DNA from: Heliocidaris erythrogramma
Lineage: Eukaryota > Echinodermata > Echinoidea > Camarodonta > Echinometridae
Length of the DNA: 64,000 bases
Direction of reading: 5' to 3'
Assembly: GCA_025617745.1 (NCBI GenBank)
Contig: CM046861.1
Location: forward strand, 9,964,244 to 10,028,243
The notes under the pieces were generated by a model. It was not told the origin of the DNA. It worked only from the letters and a program-made list of their open reading frames with translations, and made no database searches. The position numbers and the translations under genes are program-made. Below, in pieces: positions 8,601 through 56,969 of this stretch; within the stretch, counting starts at the first letter, position 1; every line of letters begins with the position of its first letter.

Positions 8601-11600
8601 CTAAGTTGAAGAGGTTAAAACACCAATATAATAGGCAAAATTTTGAGAAAATACTTCTTTCCACTTTTTAGGATAATAGAAAAGCTGATTTCAAGCAAAA
8701 TTCTTCAATAGGATCTTTATCACTTTGATCAACTGGCTGTTTTTGGCTGGCGATCTTGCTCCTTTATTTCACACATATGTGCTGAAGACTACACACTCTC
8801 TATGGGAGGCAATTCTCTGTGGTATGAAGGTATGGAGTGCGAGGTTATCTATAATAACCTCGCATATGTGTGATTGGAATTGTCCAAGAGTATATGTCAT
8901 GCAAACGCATAGAAATGTTGATGTAATGAGCCATACGGTGTAGAATATTATTTTTCATCTTATTCTATCATTATTACTATTTTTATTTTCATTATACAGG
9001 TGCTAGACAAGTACATGGTTGGAGGTTTGCACGGGTTCGACAAAGAGGGCTCCCCTGTCTGGTATGAGCCGTTTGGTTACTTTGACCCAAGGGGTGTGGT
9101 TCTTTCGAGCACGGGGAATGACCTGATGAAGATGAAGATCCAGATTTGTGAAGAGATCTTGGCTCAGCTCAGATCGCAGACGAAGAAGGTGAGAGAAATT
9201 TTATTCCAAAAGAAAATTAGAAGTCTTGTGATTGATGCTACAGGCCCATATTCTCGAAACCAGCCCAAGTTAAAAACTTTAGGCCATTGATTAGTGGAAA
9301 GCCAAGTGTCAGCCCTTAAGTTCTGTATGGCTTACTGTAATTAGGTATTAAACATATTAAAAAATGAAATTTTTATGAAGTGAAAATGAGAAAGTACTTT
9401 CATAGTGGAAAGATTCTGTATTTTCATTCAATTACAATGTTACGGTGATTTGTAGATGATGAAGAGGTTGCTATTTGGTATTTCATACATTGGTGGAATA
9501 CATTTGGCTCATAGGTGAGGTTAAATATGGCCTAAACTTAGGTGTTTTTCGAGAATGAGAACCACATTGACTGACATGACAATACGGTCTGTATATTGTT
9601 AAATATGGAAATTGTGCAGTGGGAAAGGAAAGCATTTATGAGTATTTTTTTTTTGGGGGGGGGGGGGGTGTAGTTCGGGGTAGTTTTTTTAAATACAGGT
9701 TTCCCAGCTTATTTTTAAAAATGAGTTACAATGTAATCTTCTTGGATTCAGTTTCTTTGTCTATATTTATGTTCGTATTCACCAAATTTTGTTTTCTCAC
9801 CTTTTTTTTCACCTAAATGCACGCTATGTATAAAGAGTAAGATAATTAACTAAATGTCTGTCATAAATAAATACAAATTGAACCTGAAATGTATACAAAT
9901 TTGTGAATAAATCACTTGTTTAACTAATTTTACAGCTAGGAAAGAGGATAGATAGGATGGTAATTGTCTTTGACTTGGAGAAAGCTGGTCTTTCTCACAT
10001 ATGGAAGCCTTTCATCGACAGATACAACCTCGTCCTGCAAATATTTGAAGCCCACTATCCAGAGATGCTCAAAAAGTGCTTTGTTATAAATGGTTAGTAA
10101 ATGTGCTATTCTTATTTATAAACAGAAAGAGATATTTCTACACTGTTTTGACACAGAAAATGCAATCATTTAAATCTATGACTGAAAATTTGAATAAAAA
10201 GTTATCAACTGAAAGCTAACTAGTAAAAAGGGCCAGCAAAAGAGAGGCTGAAAATGACAAGTATGATGGCTAGGGATCTATGGTAGTTCTTTTTTCTTAT
10301 TTTATGTGTTAATTAACCCATTGACTTCTGAATTCCCTAACTCCCATAGGCTTAATACAGGAGCTGACTGCTTCTAAAAGTCCAAGGGTTAAAGGCATGC
10401 GGCATGTCATGGATTATCTTGCATATCGTTGCCCTCGGATACATCAAATCCTTCCAAAACGTACTCTGATCAGTATTTCATGTCATGGATTATCTTGCAT
10501 ATCGTTGCCTTCGAATACATCAAATCCTTCCAAAACGTACTCTGATCAGTATTTCAGGGAAAGCTTATTGAAAACAAAGGTCTTACAAAAGTTATATATA
10601 CAGTCGCAAAAGAAGTATCTGAATGAAAAATTTTATGTCTCGATTCCCACCTTTGCAGCTCCAGCTTTCTTTTCAATTGGTTTCAACTTAATCAAGCCAT
10701 TCCTGAGTGAAGCTACCAAGAACAAAGTCACTATACTTGGAGGTAAGCTCTCTACAACTATCGATGGATCAGAAACAGCCACAGCCCCTTTTATGCCTCC
10801 TTCATACAAGTACATGTCATGTTATATAAACTGTCTCAAAAAAAAGGAAACTGCTCCTGCAAAATAGAAAAAAAAATTATGTAAATAGATGACAAGGGGA
10901 GATTAAAAAACGTAGCCGTGTGCAACAAATTAGGCGCTGCCGCAAACTGTATGATCTGTGTCATGTCATACTCAGATTTGTAACTTATGTCTTGTCATTT
11001 TGCTGCAGCGATTTTGTTTTGAGGCGGCTTAGGTAGCTTAGCGAAATGGAGTAGCACGAAACGGCGCGTCCGTAACGCAAATGGCGAAATTATTGGTGGC
11101 AGTGGTGAATGAAAAGTTGTAATTTCACATATGTAATGACAGTTTTGGTAATATGACTAACGAAGGTACGTTGTAGAAGGGCGATTCCGTGTAGAGTGTC
11201 CCCTGCAACATATTGCATTTTTATATGTATATTTCATCCATAAACAAAAACTCTCTTGATATGACCAGGTGGTGATACCAGAAAGTACCGTTATATAATG
11301 GTCGTATCGAAAGATTCTTCATTTTGGGAAGAAGTATGTGGAAAAAAGACATCTGTCGTACGGGACACATTGCACGGCATCGCCCAGTAGAGGTATTTTT
11401 ACCGACTCTATATTATGTTTCTACCTTAAAGGGGAATTAACCTCAAGATATAAATGTGCTTATATTCAAAGATGTAATCTATTCCTTCTTGTTGTCCTCC
11501 ATAGTTTTGCAGTAAAATATACGAGATGGGTATAAATCAAGATTTTCTCAGCAAAATTTATCGTCTGCTAGCGATACCTGGGGGCTGCCATTTTCTTGAT

Positions 11601-44994: not shown

Positions 44995-45402
44995 ATAATA
45001 CATACAATCATGTTTCTTTGTCTTCGCACATTCAGAGGGATATACCGATATGTAGACATGAACATGTACATGTACATGTCTGATGTGCATGTAAGATTTT
45101 ACCGTCTAACGCTTTGTAGTTGTTGATCTAACAGTACAATGTACATATACATGGTAGTCTGTTGCTCAAATACAATAGGGAAGAAATTCTTGCGCAATAC
45201 AATGGCCATACAGGGAGTGTCATTCAATTGTTCCCATTACTTTTCATACAGTAACTCTTCACCCAACTCAAAGTGGCAAATTCAAAAACATGCAAATGGT
45301 AACTGTAAAATTAGTTCAAGTCTACACATGGTAAATATACATACGTGTACATGTATTTGTAAAAAAAAAAAAAAATTGCACCAGCATGGCGTTAACTGTA
45401 TC

Positions 45403-48400
45403 TGGGCAATTCCATGAGATGGGTGCCATGGGGTGAAAAAATAAATTCTTATTTTGGAACTTGTCACCCACCTAATTTTGTTCAGTATACTTCTGGGCAA
45501 ACGGAACGGTAAAATTTGTCAAAAATTTGCATCAAGAATTGCAAATATTGAACTTTGAACTTAGCTTACCCTTTTATTGAGAAAAACTGTAAATATTTAC
45601 CTAAAGATGTCATTTCAATTCATACATAATTAAAGAATGGTAAGCAGTTGTTTAGTTGATTTTTAGAATGTATGGGACATTAGTTTTGAGTTGCCGAAGA
45701 GAAAAAAATGGCCTCCATTCCCATGAATGGGTAGAAAGCATGCCATCCGACTGCTCAAACCAATGTAACGTGAGTAACGAAAAAAATGAAAAAGTTTTAT
45801 TTCTTAATATTCCCTTCCATTCAAAATTTGCCAATGGAAATTCTCTTCATACTCCTTGTACCTAATATGAAAAAAAGGGTAGGAGCTGTATACATGTCAT
45901 GGTATTACAATAAATGAGGCCCAAAAATTGTAACGTGAGTAACAATGTAACGTGAGTAACGATGGTGTAACGTGAGTAACAACATAAAATTGTGATATAA
46001 ATATGTATTTCACAGGCTATGGTACAGAATTCTTTTACTGTGTGACTGAGGGATAAAAACAAAGAGTTCAGTCCTTTAATGACCTTTCATGACCTTTTGA
46101 AGTGGTCAGTGTTGCCATTACATAACATAACGTACCACACCCCCGAGTGGATCTGTTCATTGAGCTTTGTAGCAAGTTGGAGATTGCAGTGTTCTTTAGC
46201 AAGCTCTATTCTCGTCTCCTAATTGTTTCTTTAGAGGAGAGTACAGATTTATTTTTTCATTTATTTTTTATCTTTACCGGTAACTTTTAGAATAAGCACA
46301 ACAATCAATTTGTTAACATTAGTAGCCATGTAATCCAAATGAACAAAATAATGCCTAACCTACATCTATTTGCAGACAAGTTGTAAATATCCACAGATGC
46401 CGTTAGATTTGCAATGTTTATCTGAAATCTACAGTCTTTTAATTGTGTATTGGAATATAAGTTGCCATAATTGTGATATATTTATTTATAGCTTTAATTA
46501 ATGGTGTGATGTTTAATTGGAATCTTGCATCCAATAAGAATATCAATTTTTCTTATTTGCAATTCTTTGTTTTCAGTAGGAAAGTTTTAATGGTCAGATA
46601 TCTGTTAATTTAGTTGTAAAATTACATTTCCTTCTGTTAATTGTAAAATTAAATCCTCAACAAATTCTATGTTGTATTAAGGGAGGGTCAGAATGTCACT
46701 CACAAATGCTGAGAGACAACAGCGCTTCAAAGCCAAACTGCAAGCTTCGGGAAGTTATGACGAATTTAAAGAGAAACATAACTTGAAACTGCTAAATCCT
46801 CTTGATGAAAGTACCATGCCCACACCATCATCAACCATGAGCCATGACACTGTCCATGTGGGCGAGTGGTATGCTGTTGACTATGAAGGGGTCCTTTACC
46901 CAGGGGAAGTAAATTGCAGTGGGAAATCTGGGCGACTACCAAGTCTCAGTCATGGAACGAGATGGAAAGCACTGGAAGTGGCCGAATCCTAAAGACATTT
47001 TCTACCCAAAGAAAAGCTTGATCGTCAAATTAAATAAACCAGATGTAGCTAACATTTCAAGTTTTCTGTTCAGTTTTACGCCTTTCTCAGACTTTTCATC
47101 AATGATGATGAATAAAACTGCATCTTTGGTTATATGAGTCTACATGATTATTGAATATGGCCAAATGTTTAAATACCAATAGGAACTTTTACCATTTTGG
47201 TACTACATTGTAACATTGCTTTCATGTAGAATTATAAGTTAGAAGAATAAATGATTAACCTGAATGAGATTTACAAATGGATAAAAACATGGCAAATAAA
47301 TGCACAAATCTGCATTTGATTTTAGTTTGGTAAAGGTGGCACTTTCTGTTTTCACAAATTGCTTTTGAAGGGGGGATGTAATAATTTCTTTCGCCCAGTA
47401 ACGCAATAGAGAAAATGTTTTGGTCAGAATTATTATCTTTGTACCACATAATTCTGTTACCTTTATCTTTGTGGCAAGTAGTTATGATCAGATAAATTGC
47501 TTGACATTGCTTACAATAACTCATTCATGGTATTGGAAGAGAAACATATAGTCTTTTAGTTCATGTGTTGGGTTGGGTCAGATTACACATAGAGTTGAGT
47601 CTACTATTTTTTTTAATATTTATTTTGCCAGTTGTAATATATGTTACTTCATGATTATTAAAATCTTTTAAGGACTGACTAGTGTTAAAATGTAAGTGTC
47701 TCCTGAGTGATTCACAGAAACTTGAAAGCAATTTAATTTTAAAGAGAATGGAAGGAGAATATTTTTCACTCTGCGCCACTTACAAAATGCATGTACTATA
47801 AGTAAAATTGACATCATATATGTGTGGTAATTTTGCTTGAATGTTGATGATTAGCCATATAAAATGGGTTATAACACTTGAGAATATTGTCAAATATATG
47901 TAAAAGGTTAACAAAACTGTTCCATTTTATGCCTAAATAATTTACACAGTTAAATACATCAAAATATACAGTTTCAAGCTAATTTTCATGGTCAGGAGCA
48001 TGGCAATGATTATATGTTAAATATGTAACGTGAGTAACGTAACGTGAGTAACGCTAATTTTGGTAAATTTCTCAAACATATGTAATGTTTCTAAAATTCT
48101 GAGCATCTACATTGGTGAACCTCTATGTCAGTTATAAAAATCATATACCCACTGCTTTTAATTCCACCCAGTATGAGGACACTTTTTGAATAAAGACATG
48201 TGCTTGAATTATGCGGTCCAAAAATGTAACGTGAGTAACGAAAGTTTGCTTGTCTATATTTTTGGGGTAGATTTGTTGAATTGAATTCTAATAACATACC
48301 AAGGTGTATTAAGAAATCATACACCTTGTACAGAAAAGAGAGATTGTCAAACCCCACAGTAAAAAAAATATGGCAATTACAATATGCCAAGGTGCCTAAA

Positions 48401-48431
48401 ATGTGTAACGTGAGTAACGTGGAATTGCCCA
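45403..48431 (+). mobile_element. 3.0-kb DNA transposon-like element with 12-bp TIRs and eight GTAACGTGAGTAACG repeats
   Basis: TGGGCAATTCCA at 45403-45414 is perfectly inverted at 48420-48431. Between them the 15-base word GTAACGTGAGTAACG (last base A in two copies) occurs eight times, all on the plus strand: 45765, 45930, 45947, 45967 and 48025, 48039, 48226, 48405. The last copy ends one base before the right TIR. A frameshifted ORF lies between the clusters. The repeats resemble subterminal transposase-binding arrays, but they are direct and not inverted. Superfamily not recognised; target duplication unclear. Confidence 0.75.
46693..47137 (+). pseudogene. Frameshifted transposon-type ORF inside the 3.0-kb element
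   Basis: The frame starts MSLTNAERQQRFKAKLQASG, a basic N-terminus of a kind I recall from repeat-encoded invertebrate ORFs. A linker follows, then VGEWYAVDYEGVLYPGEV. A one-base shift near 46912-46919 moves the rest into another frame: GDYQVSVMERDGKHWKWPNP, then KDIFYPKK. Together these form one small domain with a W-V-Y-YPGEV / VSVM-WKWP-D-FY pattern. From memory, this pattern sits at the C-terminus of larger transposase-like proteins, so the copy may have lost its catalytic middle by internal deletion. That is inference. Codon use looks protein-like on both sides of the shift. Confidence 0.6.
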
Positions 48432-48543
48432 TCTATCTTTTGCACCAAAAGTTGTTATTATCATACTAATTATCACAATTAATCCAGGAAATACTAAGGT
48501 TAATTGACTTCAGAGAATATGCTATATACTGGTACACTGGTAG

Positions 48544-48829
48544 AGGTGTCATGGTCTAGTGGATACGTCACCGGACTGTGATCTCATGGTTCGTGGTTCG
48601 AGTCCCGCCGCGGCACTAATGTCCTTTGGCAAGACATTAATCTGCATTTGCCACTCTCCACCCAGGTGTAGTAAATGGGTACCTGGTAGGAATTTATTCC
48701 TTGAATGCTTTCAGCACCTTAGGGCAGCTGGACTAATGCCAGGGTAATAATACTCCTTTGTAGGCGGCTTGAGCATCCTCTGGGATGGATACGTGCGCAA
48801 TATAAATGTAGCTATTATTATTATTACAA
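48544..48829 (+). mobile_element. Full-length tRNA-derived SINE
   Basis: A box TGGTCTAGTGGATACG and B box GGTTCGAGTCCCG at the head. Central block: CCTTTGGCAAGACATTAATC, CCACTCTCCACCCAGGTGTA and GGGTACCTGG. Tail: GTGCGCAATATAAATGTAG followed by (ATT)n. This is the best preserved of the SINE copies in the window, and it starts about 110 bp after the 3.0-kb element ends. Confidence 0.88.
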
Positions 48830-51800
48830 TGTAGTTTAATGTATTAATTTTGTACATTGTATATAAGCCACCATGTACATGCATGTGAATAGAATATTAC
48901 ATTAAATATATCATTCATCAGTGAATCTTCTCTAACATTCTACAGTACAAGCCTTACAAAAATCATATTATTCACTTTAGTTCCAAGGGTGTTTGTACAA
49001 ACAAAGGCAAAGATATATATGAAACTATTTTCAATAAATCATACTAAGTTCCCCTTTCTAGTGAACTGTGGGCCCATTCTAATGGCATAACATGTCCCTG
49101 CAGAATTACATGTTACTTTGCTCCTTTTTTAAAGACTTTGACCTCCTCCCAAAGAGAGAACTGTTTTTTTTATGATGATTTATTCATCCGTGCAGATTAT
49201 ACAAATATGTACAATACATGGCAAGAGCCAAGAGTTGACCCCCCCCCCCCCCCAAAAAAAAGTATTTTAATGACTTTGAGTCCTTGAAGCTATAAAGAGA
49301 ATTCATTCCATTCCACAAAATTGGTACTGTATATATGCACTGTACATGTACATACCTAGTATTATAAGAGAAATTTGGTAAGAAATAATTTATTGAATAT
49401 TGTAAGAAATCAATAATTGTAGTTGCCAAACACTGTCAAGAGAATAAATGACATGTGCATAAATTCATTTATAGTGTCTGAATGAATAAAATATTAATAC
49501 TTGGAAAGCGAACAACAAAAAATTAGGAAAAAATAAACAGGTCTACAAGTACTGTATTGCCTTTGAAAACACATACTGCATGGATCAGTGTGTCAATATC
49601 AACTACATGTACTATGCTTTGTCAGTAATGGTAACTATACTTTTAAATATGTTTTATAGTCAGGGTCATGCTAATAAAATGTAATTGATTGAGGTAATTG
49701 TGTTTCTTAAGGAATTTTTTTTTAAATATTATCTTCATTTTCACTTTAATACTGGTACCTGTTTCATTTTATTTTCAAGGTTATGTTTACATCCATTCAT
49801 ACTAATATACTGCTTAATAATCTCTTTCTATAGCACTAAAACTTTTACTTCATAACTCAACTTACGGTATCATTCTGGTTTGTAATAATGTCAGTAATTA
49901 CAATCATATTTATAGCTAATGAATACGAGATAAAATTTATTTGTTCATTATATTTCATAACTGAAATTATAGTTTAATGATGATTAAAAAATTGGATAAT
50001 GATAATAGTACTTTTAGTGATAATTACTACTGTTTACAACATGTCAATACAATCTGGTTTACCACATGTACAGATCATTCACTGTACATGCACGTTATCA
50101 TGCCAGTGCAAAAAAGTATTCATTATTTATTGGCGTACTGCTCCTCCTCTTGATATTATTTTTCTGTTTGATCCTTGTCCAATATGAAGACAGATTTTTT
50201 TCTTTATTTTCAATTTAAAATAAAAAATCTTTGATACAATTGTCTTTTATGATTTGATATTACAACTTTCCTCTGTTGGTATTTCATGTTATTTGTTATT
50301 GTCTTTTGTTATTTGATATAACAAATTTACCCTTTTTTTGTATTTCATTCCATGCTATTTTGTTAATCCTCCTTTTTTTACATATCTTTTACTTTATTCT
50401 GAGGTCATGCACTTTTATTTCGTGCGTACCCAAAATATTGATAACGCATGGTGACTCTGTAATGGACTGAAGAGATCAGCGAAACACATAAGTACATGTA
50501 CTATTCCGTCAAGGTCACAAACTTTTTTCTTGGGTCGACTGATATGGGGAAAACTACATTTTATCACGTGATTACCTTTTGACATATATATCTACATCTA
50601 CTCTGGTACTCAGCAACGTCCACTTCTGGATATAACGCTATGACCAATCTAACAGCAAGATTCTTATCCATGTAAACTTATGTGGAATATAATAAGTAAA
50701 TAATAAATAATGAATAATATCAAAACGGTATAATATAGTGCCTTGCATCCGACCTATCCCCATGAGGGCAATCCCACCTTTTCAACAAGATGAATTGGAA
50801 GAACAGAAAACTTAGAGAAAACTTTTGAAGTAAGAAATCAAGAACTGCATGCACATGTACATGTATGTAAAATGCACAGACATGGGCATCATACATGTAA
50901 TCTGTTTAAATTGCAATGTCAAAATGACTAGGTTGCCTTTCCTTGTAAAAAACGACACAGTTCTTACTGAAATTTTGATATTTTTGACAAAATTACTTGT
51001 TAGAATATCAGGAATATTATAAGATTTATGAAATACAGGAATGTAAAAGTAATTCTTCTTCAGTTTCCAGTCAAAGACTCAGGCGCAGACAGGGCTTCCC
51101 ATCATACTTCTCTATTGATGTAAATTTTCACTTTTGATAATGATTACATTGAAATAGTTATTATGACATCTGTATTTGATATTTGAACTATGTATACTTT
51201 CAATTGTAATGTTCATTGCAGATTTCTGCAGTATTACGAAATAAATGCATTCATTCATCCATTCATTCATTCATACCACTCATAGGCCCTTGCCTATGTG
51301 GGACTGTGTCCAACATTCACTGTCATGACTGTTGCAGCAGTCAAAAGCAGACAACAAAATTGCTCTAAACAAGATTTAATTTTCTTAAATGACTCTTCAA
51401 CTCTTACTTTGCCACAAATGTAGGGATTCAGACTTGAAAGTGAAATTTTAAATAATTATTTTCCTCTCCTGTACGAATGATCTAGCCTGAAAAAGGGCCT
51501 GCTGATACACACAAAAGCTATTGAAGCCTATTCACCCGTAAAAGCTAGTTTGGAGTACAAGGTGATCTTCAGATAAGCTTGTACATGTATAAATGATTCA
51601 TACTAGTATTAGAGTCTACTAGATTTTTAGCAGCCAATAATTCAGATTGAAATTTCAACTTCAAAAGTAAAACATGACCATTCTGTTTATCAGACTGACG
51701 TCACTCATCCCCATGAACAATAGTTTCCAAGAACGCCAAACGCCAAACAATGGATTCGCAAATGGCAAATTTTTTGCACACTTTCACTGGGATTTTGTCT

Positions 51801-55716: not shown

Positions 55717-56131
55717 GGTTCCGTCAATAACAATTTATCTAAAATGCTCTTATATCAACTGTTTATTTCTTACATGTACTTAAAATTAAACTGATATTAT
55801 AAAATAGTAAGTTCGGTCATCGGTGTCAATTATGACCTGGTGATACAGGGAGATCTGTACCCATGCATCTAAATTCTCCATTCTACCAGTAAAGATAATT
55901 TGCGACCTTGCCTTAATTTTAATGTCAAGACAATATCATGTAACACAAGTTTCTTGTATCGCAGCCTAACCAACTAGCCGGTTATTTATTTATTTATTTA
56001 TTTATTCAAACATAATATATTTACACAGGATAAAAACAATGGTATCAGCAATTAAATGCTGTTTTACAACAATGTCCTGTTGATATTTCCAATTCTTACC
56101 AGAGGGATGCTTCTTTTTAGATTGTTATTTT

Positions 56132-56969
56132 TTGCCGAATTAAAATAACAGAGATGGGTTTGATGGGTTTGATGGAATATTTTGTTATGGTAATAGCAAT
56201 AGAAAGACAAATAAGAAAAAATATAAAAAATGCTCATGACCTCATCATAAACATGGCAAATAGTTGTCAAATATAATTTTATTCAGCGGGGGTATGAGGA
56301 GAGAAAATTCTAGTTTGTCTTGAGAACTAGAGGGGCGTTATCAGAATTCAAAGATGTTCACTTAAAAGCTTTCTTGTTCTCAATGAAACATCTTCGAATT
56401 ATATGATCATCCTTCCAGTGGCGTATCTATAGGGATTATGGCGCCGGGGGCAAGCAATGAAGTTGCGCCCCCCCCCCCAGTGCCCCAAATTATTTAAGTT
56501 ATTACAAGCTATAGGGAGCAAAGCGACCGAGCGGCAAATTTTGTTATATTTTGCCGAATTAAAATAACAGAGATGGGTTTGATGGGTTTGATGGAATATT
56601 TTGTTATGGTAATAGCAATAGAAAGACAAATAAGAAAAAATATTTAAAAATGCTCATGACCTCATCATAAACATGGCAAATAGTTGTCAAATATAATTTT
56701 ATTCAGCGGGGGTATGAGGAGAGAAAATTCTAGTTTGTCTTGAGAACTAGAGGGGCGTTATCAGAATTCAAAGATGTTCACTTAAAAGCTTTCTTGTTCT
56801 CAATGAAACATCTTCGAATTATATGATCATCCTTCCAGTGGCGTATCTATAGGGATTATGGCGCCGGGGGCAAGCAATGAAGTTGCGCCCCCCCCCCCAG
56901 TGCCCCAAATTATTTAAGTTATTACAAGCTATATAGGGAGCAAAGCGACCGAGCGGCAAATTTTTCCAT
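56132..56969. repeat. Recent tandem duplication, two 419-bp units
   Basis: Units start at 56132 and 56551 with TTGCCGAATTAAAATAACAG and are almost identical to GGAGCAAAGCGACCGAGCGG. Visible differences are a few bases in an A-run and an extra TA in the second unit. Each unit includes CCAGTGGCGTATCTATAGGG and a 12-base C run. Confidence 0.95.

Follow-up and report, generated by a model that had tools for sequence, protein, structure and literature searches.

The transposon, its surroundings and its genomic copies

The window considered here, a stretch of 64,000 nucleotides (C9:9964244-10028243), harbors at 45404-48430 a DNA transposon that is bounded by 11-bp terminal inverted repeats (TIRs) of the sequence GGGCAATTCCA and flanked by an exact 4-bp target duplication, ATCT. 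Between its ends lie eight short words in two groups and a relic open reading frame (ORF):

45400..45403, no strand: left target-site duplication ATCT (window sequence; 4-bp duplication defined on 33 copies)
45404..45414, + strand: left TIR GGGCAATTCCA (pattern search and copy comparison)
45765..45779, + strand: word 1, GTAACGTGAGTAACG; at this position in 34 of 41 loci, some being truncated there
45930..45944, + strand: word 2, GTAACGTGAGTAACA; 28 of 41 loci
45947..45961, + strand: word 3; 33 of 41 loci
45967..45981, + strand: word 4, with final A; 33 of 41 loci
46693..46908, + strand: relic ORF, first frame; putative N-terminal transposase piece joined to the start of a C-terminal domain (MSLTNAERQQRF... 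VGEWYAVDYEGVLYPGEV)
46913..47050, + strand: relic ORF, second frame; putative C-terminal domain (GDYQVSVMERDGKHWKWPNPKD...), open in two older copies
48025..48039, + strand: word 5; 36 of 41 loci
48039..48053, + strand: word 6; 35 of 41 loci
48226..48240, + strand: word 7; 35 of 41 loci; counterpart of a site some 200 bp inside the right end in 6 of 6 families
48405..48419, + strand: word 8, adjoining the right TIR; 37 of 41 loci, and also in L098 and L103
48420..48430, - strand: right TIR GGGCAATTCCA (pattern search and copy comparison)
48431..48434, no strand: right target-site duplication ATCT (window sequence and copy comparison)

Just downstream of the element, at 48540-48830, a repeat with a tRNA-like promoter (TGGTCTAGTGG ... 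GGTTCGAGTCC) looks like a SINE, and received no Rfam call at the gathering score. Elsewhere in the window, two head-to-tail copies of a 420-bp unit occupy 56122-56964 with 98% matches, and pieces of a CRAL-TRIO domain are found at 8922-9287 and 10325-10864. One of these CRAL-TRIO exons scores over the Pfam cut-off and one 0.1 bit under it, and the piece at 10325-10864 contains a 76-bp tandem duplication at 10403-10556 (97% matches); together they suggest that an animal gene lies nearby.

An earlier note on this DNA, made from its letters alone, had described perfect inverted ends. A pattern search of the window finds TGGGCAATTCCA exactly at 45403 on the plus strand and at 48420-48431 on the minus strand, so that the ends are exact on both sides; because the duplication is 4 bp long across copies, the outermost T/A of the repeat as first described is part of ATCT, and the TIR proper is 11 bp. 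The same note had proposed a search for further copies with the same ends. In the host genome (1.06 Gb in 26 contigs), the left 588 bp yield at least 41 matches (40 of 43 candidates scored; two of the matches are pieces of one locus) and the right 432 bp at least 40 (40 of 47 candidates scored). Among the left-end matches listed, 40 of 41 are at 90% identity or more and 37 of 41 begin at position 1 or 2. The comparisons below are based on the window copy and 40 fetched loci, 41 loci in all, and both end searches list further copies outside this sample. The genome contains 219 exact instances of the 15-mer GTAACGTGAGTAACG, 116 of them forward and 103 reverse (0 and 1 for the reversed control pattern); far from being scattered without the TIRs, 194 of the 219 fall in the window copy and the 40 fetched loci, and the other 25 lie outside the sample.

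Alignment of the copies, which the note had proposed as a means of defining boundaries and duplications, returned the 11-bp TIR and a duplication of 4 bp. Both ends are present in 33 of the 41 loci, and flanking duplications of 4 bp are exact in 21 of these 33, another 9 matching at three of four positions; random, mismatched pairs of left and right flanks match at 4 bp in 30 of 1056 cases. Flank matches at other lengths are rare in the 33 copies (2 bp, 6; 3 bp, 2; 5 bp, 0; 6 bp, 0; 7 bp, 1; 8 bp, 0; 9 bp, 0; 10 bp, 1). The duplications, mostly of the form A/T-T-W-T, are A/T-rich: the 21 exact ones, among them ATCT, TTGT, TATT and AGCT, carry A in 12, T in 8 and C in 1 at position 1, T in 16 at position 2, and T in 15 and A in 6 at position 4. 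The TIR GGGCAATTCCA is exact in the window, and likewise at 33 of the 37 left ends and 35 of the 37 right ends found. The element of the window is a multi-copy non-autonomous DNA transposon, whose enzyme has been lost and which has yet been copied recently. Flanks match at fewer than three of four positions in L059, L065 and L085. L059 (C6:20577500-20583000) has no 4-bp duplication, an 11-bp flanking repeat, GACAATATGGC, being found instead, and the first base of its left TIR is altered. L064 and L065, about 99 kb apart on C8, have a 30-bp left flank in common and differ in their right flanks, a pattern that could stem from segmental duplication or from recombination between copies. A single interrupted copy may have given rise to both L052 and L053, each being one of its ends.

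Subterminal words in the family and in related families

Eight copies of a 15-base word, four near each end, had been reported in the window. Eight matches to GTAACGTGAGTAACG (≤2 mismatches) indeed start at 45765, 45930, 45947, 45967, 48025, 48039, 48226 and 48405, in two groups of four, compared with a mean of 0.04 in shuffled sequences (n=100); six of them are exact 15-mers and, because the words at 45930 and 45967 end in A, the common word is the 14-mer GTAACGTGAGTAAC rather than a 15-mer. The single orientation and the proximity of one word to the right TIR were correctly seen: all eight lie on the plus strand, and word 8 adjoins the TIR at 48420. Across the 41 loci, 273 words were counted with ≤2 mismatches; 273 of 273 face the same way within the element, and 271 occupy the same eight places, with one each at 357 and 551. 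A final A is usual at sites 2 and 4 across the family. In the window, the word at 48039 begins 14 bp after the one at 48025 and shares a base with it; this spacing is 16 bp in the 13 other copies with both words listed.

Similar words occur in five further families of the same genome, which allows positions (in bp from the left and right ends) and spellings to be compared:

Window family: left 361, 526, 543, 563; right 406, 392, 205, 26; spelled GTAACGTGAGTAAC
L098: left 359, 499; right 388, 200, 27; spelled GTAACGTGAGTAAC
L103: right 629, 417 (degenerate), 402, 204, 27; spelled GTAACGTCAGTTAC
L099: left 367, 520 (inverted), 543, 565; right 418, 396, 382, 194; spelled GTACGTCCATCACG, TGTACGTCCAACCG
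C7 element: left 397 onward; right 942, 582, 559, 205; spelled GTAACGTAAGTTTC, GTAACGTAGGTTAC, GTAACGTATGTTAC
L096: left 553, 570, 590; right 694, 193

In 6 of 6 families a site lies at a distance of 193-205 bp from the right end, and all six have a site in any one 12-bp window in 1 of 200,000 random placements. L098, a sister element, carries five words, two of them exact (simulated sequences, mean 0.02, n=300), the scan of L096 with the word pattern gives 6 matches with ≤3 mismatches (simulations, mean 0.27, n=300), and the C7 element has 11 near-palindromic words, all in two subterminal regions (simulations, mean 0.12, n=200). In L102, two similar words with 2 and 3 mismatches are 176 bp apart. 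Outside the words, the end DNA of L098 aligns with that of the window at 60-61% and that of the families at 58-61%, as against means of 58-59% (sd 1.2-1.8) for shuffled partners, so that little or nothing except the words is recognisably conserved. Within the words, identity to the window is 84% at both ends of L098, 75% (left) and 59% (right) in L096, and 55% (left) and 71% (right) in L099, where the word is spelled differently from the window's; the right-end words of L096 are at background level in global alignment, yet are found by the pattern scan. To judge from these comparisons, the word positions are older than the window family.

The earlier note had suspected two half-sites within each word, and this receives indirect support from the related families, which spell near-palindromes (GTAACGTCAGTTAC, GTAACGTADGTTWC). 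When L099 and L102 are set aside, the common word form is GTAACGT-N2-GTWAC, itself a near-palindrome. Perhaps the ancestral pair of half-sites was inverted, in which case the direct pair of the window would be one substitution away. With regard to orientation, the words run one way in 5 of 5 cases in L098, in 6 of 6 in L096 (one probably a chance match), in 5 of 5 at the right end of L103, the degenerate word included, and in 7 of 8 in L099, to which a looser scan adds an overlapping reverse match with 4 mismatches. The C7 element is mixed, with 5 forward and 6 reverse among its 11 subterminal GTAACGTA cores, a twelfth core lying inside an ORF. It follows that uniform orientation characterises this branch rather than the lineage as a whole.

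In the output of Tandem Repeats Finder, 45929-45982 and 48025-48053 form small arrays, and young copies inherit their parent's content, as a functionless local expansion of tandem or minisatellite type, spread by the copying of the element alone, would have it. Such an origin is nonetheless very improbable, since positions and orientation persist where alignment of the remaining subterminal sequence is about as good as for shuffled DNA, and since it gives no account of the right-end site that 6 of 6 families place in one 12-bp window. The word columns also change less than the rest: relative to the family majority, changes number 16 of 3348 non-CpG cells in word columns and 1425 of 102991 in other columns, and 27 of 1031 and 129 of 1432 CpG cells, respectively, counts that are descriptive because the copies share ancestry. 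The effect is uneven among single 15-bp word windows (percentiles 0.07 to 0.75).

It is also conceivable that the words are sites of a host DNA-binding protein, for example a transcription factor of Myb-like or bZIP-like type, which the element captured for activating or silencing transcription and which the transposase does not read. The left group, some 710-930 bp upstream of the relic ORF, occupies a possible place for a promoter, TAACG may resemble Myb sites, and the 25 of 219 genomic 15-mers outside the sampled loci could be located elsewhere than in the element. A promoter does not account, however, for four words far 3′ of the ORF, one of them adjoining the right TIR; a related family spells all its sites differently at similar positions, and a host site would be expected elsewhere too, whereas 194 of 219 15-mers lie in element copies. 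This explanation is hence regarded as improbable.

Subterminal repeats are common in DNA transposons, and the piggyBac and piggyBat enzymes belong to a different superfamily from the one considered below. In a study of the hAT transposon Hermes, BED domains of a multimeric transposase read subterminal repeats, the first two of which form a quasi-palindrome; the motifs are 4 bp long, number 17 and 14 per end and are densest at the tips, with five within 55 bp of either tip (PMC10368747). The window element resembles Hermes in its asymmetric arrays of short subterminal repeats on both ends and differs from it in having 14-bp words that extend up to 563 bp inward, in clusters about 180-190 bp apart. 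Identical 19-bp palindromic repeats, again asymmetric on the two ends as in the window element, are described for piggyBac, and the ends of piggyBat carry GCGGGA motifs (PMC11707139). In contrast to the window element, the right-end motifs of piggyBat occur in both orientations, and these transposons have TTAA targets.

The relic ORF, its transposase relatives and the superfamily

A 158-aa frame is open over the relic ORF in two older copies, L088 and C21:43809546, and the L088 frame was used for all comparisons; in some other copies the matching part is covered by frames open for 145-146 aa, and in many, the window's included, the match is found only with stops or in two frames. A protein search of the genome with this frame gave at least 150 matches (150 of 157 candidates scored). 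In L096 (C18:28401691-28403138), a 257-aa frame opens with the same N-terminus, and some 1.3 kb further along the same C-terminus is encountered. Because of this arrangement, the best interpretation of the short ORF of the window is that it represents both outer portions of a longer transposase, the core of which would be gone.

Truncated P-element proteins that act as repressors offer a parallel for a different reading, in which the relic ORF makes a short repressor of transposition from the N- and C-terminus and the element is kept for that purpose. The frame being open at 158 aa in L088 and C21:43809546, and at 145-146 aa in others, would suit such a role. Changes at the three codon positions, by contrast, show no third-position excess, neither in the 13 older copies (25, 43, 23) nor in the 28 others (34, 21, 31), and the many copies with stops or a split frame include that of the window. 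With no constraint visible in the codon-position changes, a functional short ORF was rejected, and the repressor reading is considered highly unlikely.

A core persists in relatives. L099 contains a 266-aa frame with DFSEN...SDGASSQF...HGKG..DGLGG blocks; its C-terminal domain overlaps and then follows the core frame in another frame, and matches the L088 ORF at 40% over 97 aa. L097, part of the C7 element, has an 876-aa open frame with a protein of 874 aa, whose core is common with that of L099 (28% over 173 aa, E 1e-19) and whose C-terminal match is weaker (E 3e-8). The L088 ORF is thus homologous to the C-termini of the L099 and L097 proteins, and these two share D-containing blocks: QMDFAEN/QVDFSEN, VSDE, TDSPTSQ/SDGASSQ and HGKG..DG. 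Core queries from L097 and L099, run against the window and loci L050-L104 (E≤0.01), matched only L097, L099 and L102, the core of the last being 73% like that of L099. It is on this ground that none of the 41 loci is taken to contain the core, nor was a match obtained in L096 or L098; the loci searched include several truncated ones, and cover the region of L052 and L053 except for about 8.5 kb between the two. The full-length autonomous partner of the window family that the earlier note had suggested looking for was not found among the 41 loci. Long variants were examined as candidates and rejected: the extra DNA of L060 and L052 contains a DIRS-like retrotransposon, and that of L069 is another inverted-repeat element. 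The DIRS-like DNA, at 1572-7532 of L060 and about 4900-9900 of L052, has frames that by eye are like reverse transcriptase and tyrosine recombinase.

Scans of Pfam, NCBIfam and PDB gave no naming match for the relic ORF, its C-terminal profile or the L097 protein, and weak hits such as Band_7 and LexA were judged to be chance. No match was confirmed when two proteins were searched against viral contigs; the word matched once in each of 41 viral stretches, which was likewise attributed to chance.

The earlier note left the superfamily unnamed. Kolobok and piggyBac target TTAA, which does not occur among the 21 exact duplications; hAT, P and Merlin elements duplicate 8-9 bp (hAT 8 bp), and no copy of the 33 has flanks that agree over 8 or 9 bp, versus 21 of 33 at 4 bp. 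The Ginger transposase resembles the Gypsy integrase, and the L097 protein, by which this candidate had to be judged since the window family's own core is missing, has no Pfam integrase match (E≤1). The motifs of L097 and L099, on the other hand, may resemble those of the Sola transposase. For Sola, 4-bp target duplications, TIRs of at least 11 bp and a transposase of the DDD type are expected; the window family duplicates 4 bp and has the 11-bp GGGCAATTCCA, and the D-containing blocks of L097 and L099 might include catalytic residues of such an enzyme. The two relatives that kept the core have GGG ends and exact 4-bp duplications (GGGCAGTTCCG/GGGCGATTCCG with ATGA on both sides, read by eye, in L099; GGGYCAAAACC with TACA on both sides in the C7 element). 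Judged by these sequence features, they fit Sola, probably Sola2. Sola is also the most likely superfamily of the window element, a placement based on duplication, TIR and a putative likeness in motifs.

Sola TIRs range from 11 to 1124 bp (PMC10741241), amoebozoan Sola2 elements have duplications of the type AWWT, also ATAT, AAAT and ATTT (PMC3627910, PMC10741241), and relatives of one family have lost most of the transposase region (PMC3627910, PMC10741241). The likeness to Sola2 as described there thus comprises the A/T-rich 4-bp duplication, a TIR at the lower limit quoted for Sola, family members lacking most of the transposase, and perhaps the D-containing core in the relatives found here. 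A Repbase rule assigns non-autonomous elements by equal duplication length and by an alignment in which the first 11 bp differ at no more than one position (PMC4455052). The right end of L098 has one mismatch over these 11 bp and is within the alignment part of the rule, while its flanks, GTTT/TAAT, show no matching target duplication; those of L096 (ACAT/ATAT) match at three of four positions. In the literature searched, which left most subscription journals and Repbase outside, no text matched the word or joined Sola with subterminal repeats, transposase and TIRs. The window family may already have a Repbase name.

A proposed mode of end recognition and the spacing of the sites

The repeat family with its precise ends, the 4-bp duplications, the coreless loci, and the positions and orientation of the words are observed. 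They are best explained, with a probability of roughly 0.78, if the window element is an internally deleted cut-and-paste transposon, Sola-like and probably of the Sola2 type, that is moved in trans by a related transposase for which the words serve as docking sites. The transposase of a related element would bind each 14-bp word, probably as a dimer because the word was ancestrally perhaps a near-palindrome, GTAAC-N4-GTTAC, and several dimers would load on each end. Since all words point in one direction along the element, those on the left would face inward and those on the right outward; the best reading of the uniform orientation, as far as sequence can tell, is that it makes the two ends unlike. 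With non-equivalent ends, pairing of a left with a right end would be favored before cutting, which would take place at the 11-bp TIRs and be followed by insertion with a 4-bp stagger. One-way words thus suggest a testable way for a transposon with near-identical 11-bp tips to tell left from right. The related families of this one genome, in which site positions are kept while the word varies in concert across each family's sites, constitute natural material for studying the co-evolution of a transposase and its sites.

The C7 element, whose orientation is mixed, is 7333 bp long and inserted in a 28-bp tandem repeat (C7:13846000-13856500, comprising L100, L097 and L101); inverted arrays of a GGAGCAATTGTCGC-type repeat are found inside it.

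Site clusters tend to be about 180-190 bp apart. The gaps between them are 183, 179 and 194 bp in the window, 177, 205.5 and 219.5 bp in L103, and 190, 168, 361.5, 381, 365.5 and 371.5 bp in the C7 element, and the best period for window, C7 and L099 together is 187 bp. Taken by itself, C7 reaches p 0.005 when periods of 120 to 259 bp are allowed, whereas the window family by itself lacks significance (p 0.11). The full set of 19 gaps, poorly fitting ones among them, has its peak at 179 bp (p 5e-5, 1/20,000). These values are optimistic because the families are related and their gaps not independent. The 19 include two gaps at odds with a regular spacing, 140 bp at the left of L098 and 501 bp at the right of L096. 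A spacing of about 185 bp would most obviously be read as the nucleosome repeat; DNA looping with a fixed helical face would be another reading.

As a tentative and rather doubtful extension of the docking-site model, the sites might be phased to the nucleosome repeat, so that linker DNA would give the transposase access to a chromatinised end, with one-way orientation telling left from right. Clusters would then stand one or two nucleosome spacings apart, and the conserved C-terminal domain would possibly help the transposase. The spacing makes it testable whether the ends of transposons are organised for recognition on nucleosomes. In the Hermes paper, the nucleosome is mentioned once beside subterminal repeats (PMC10368747).
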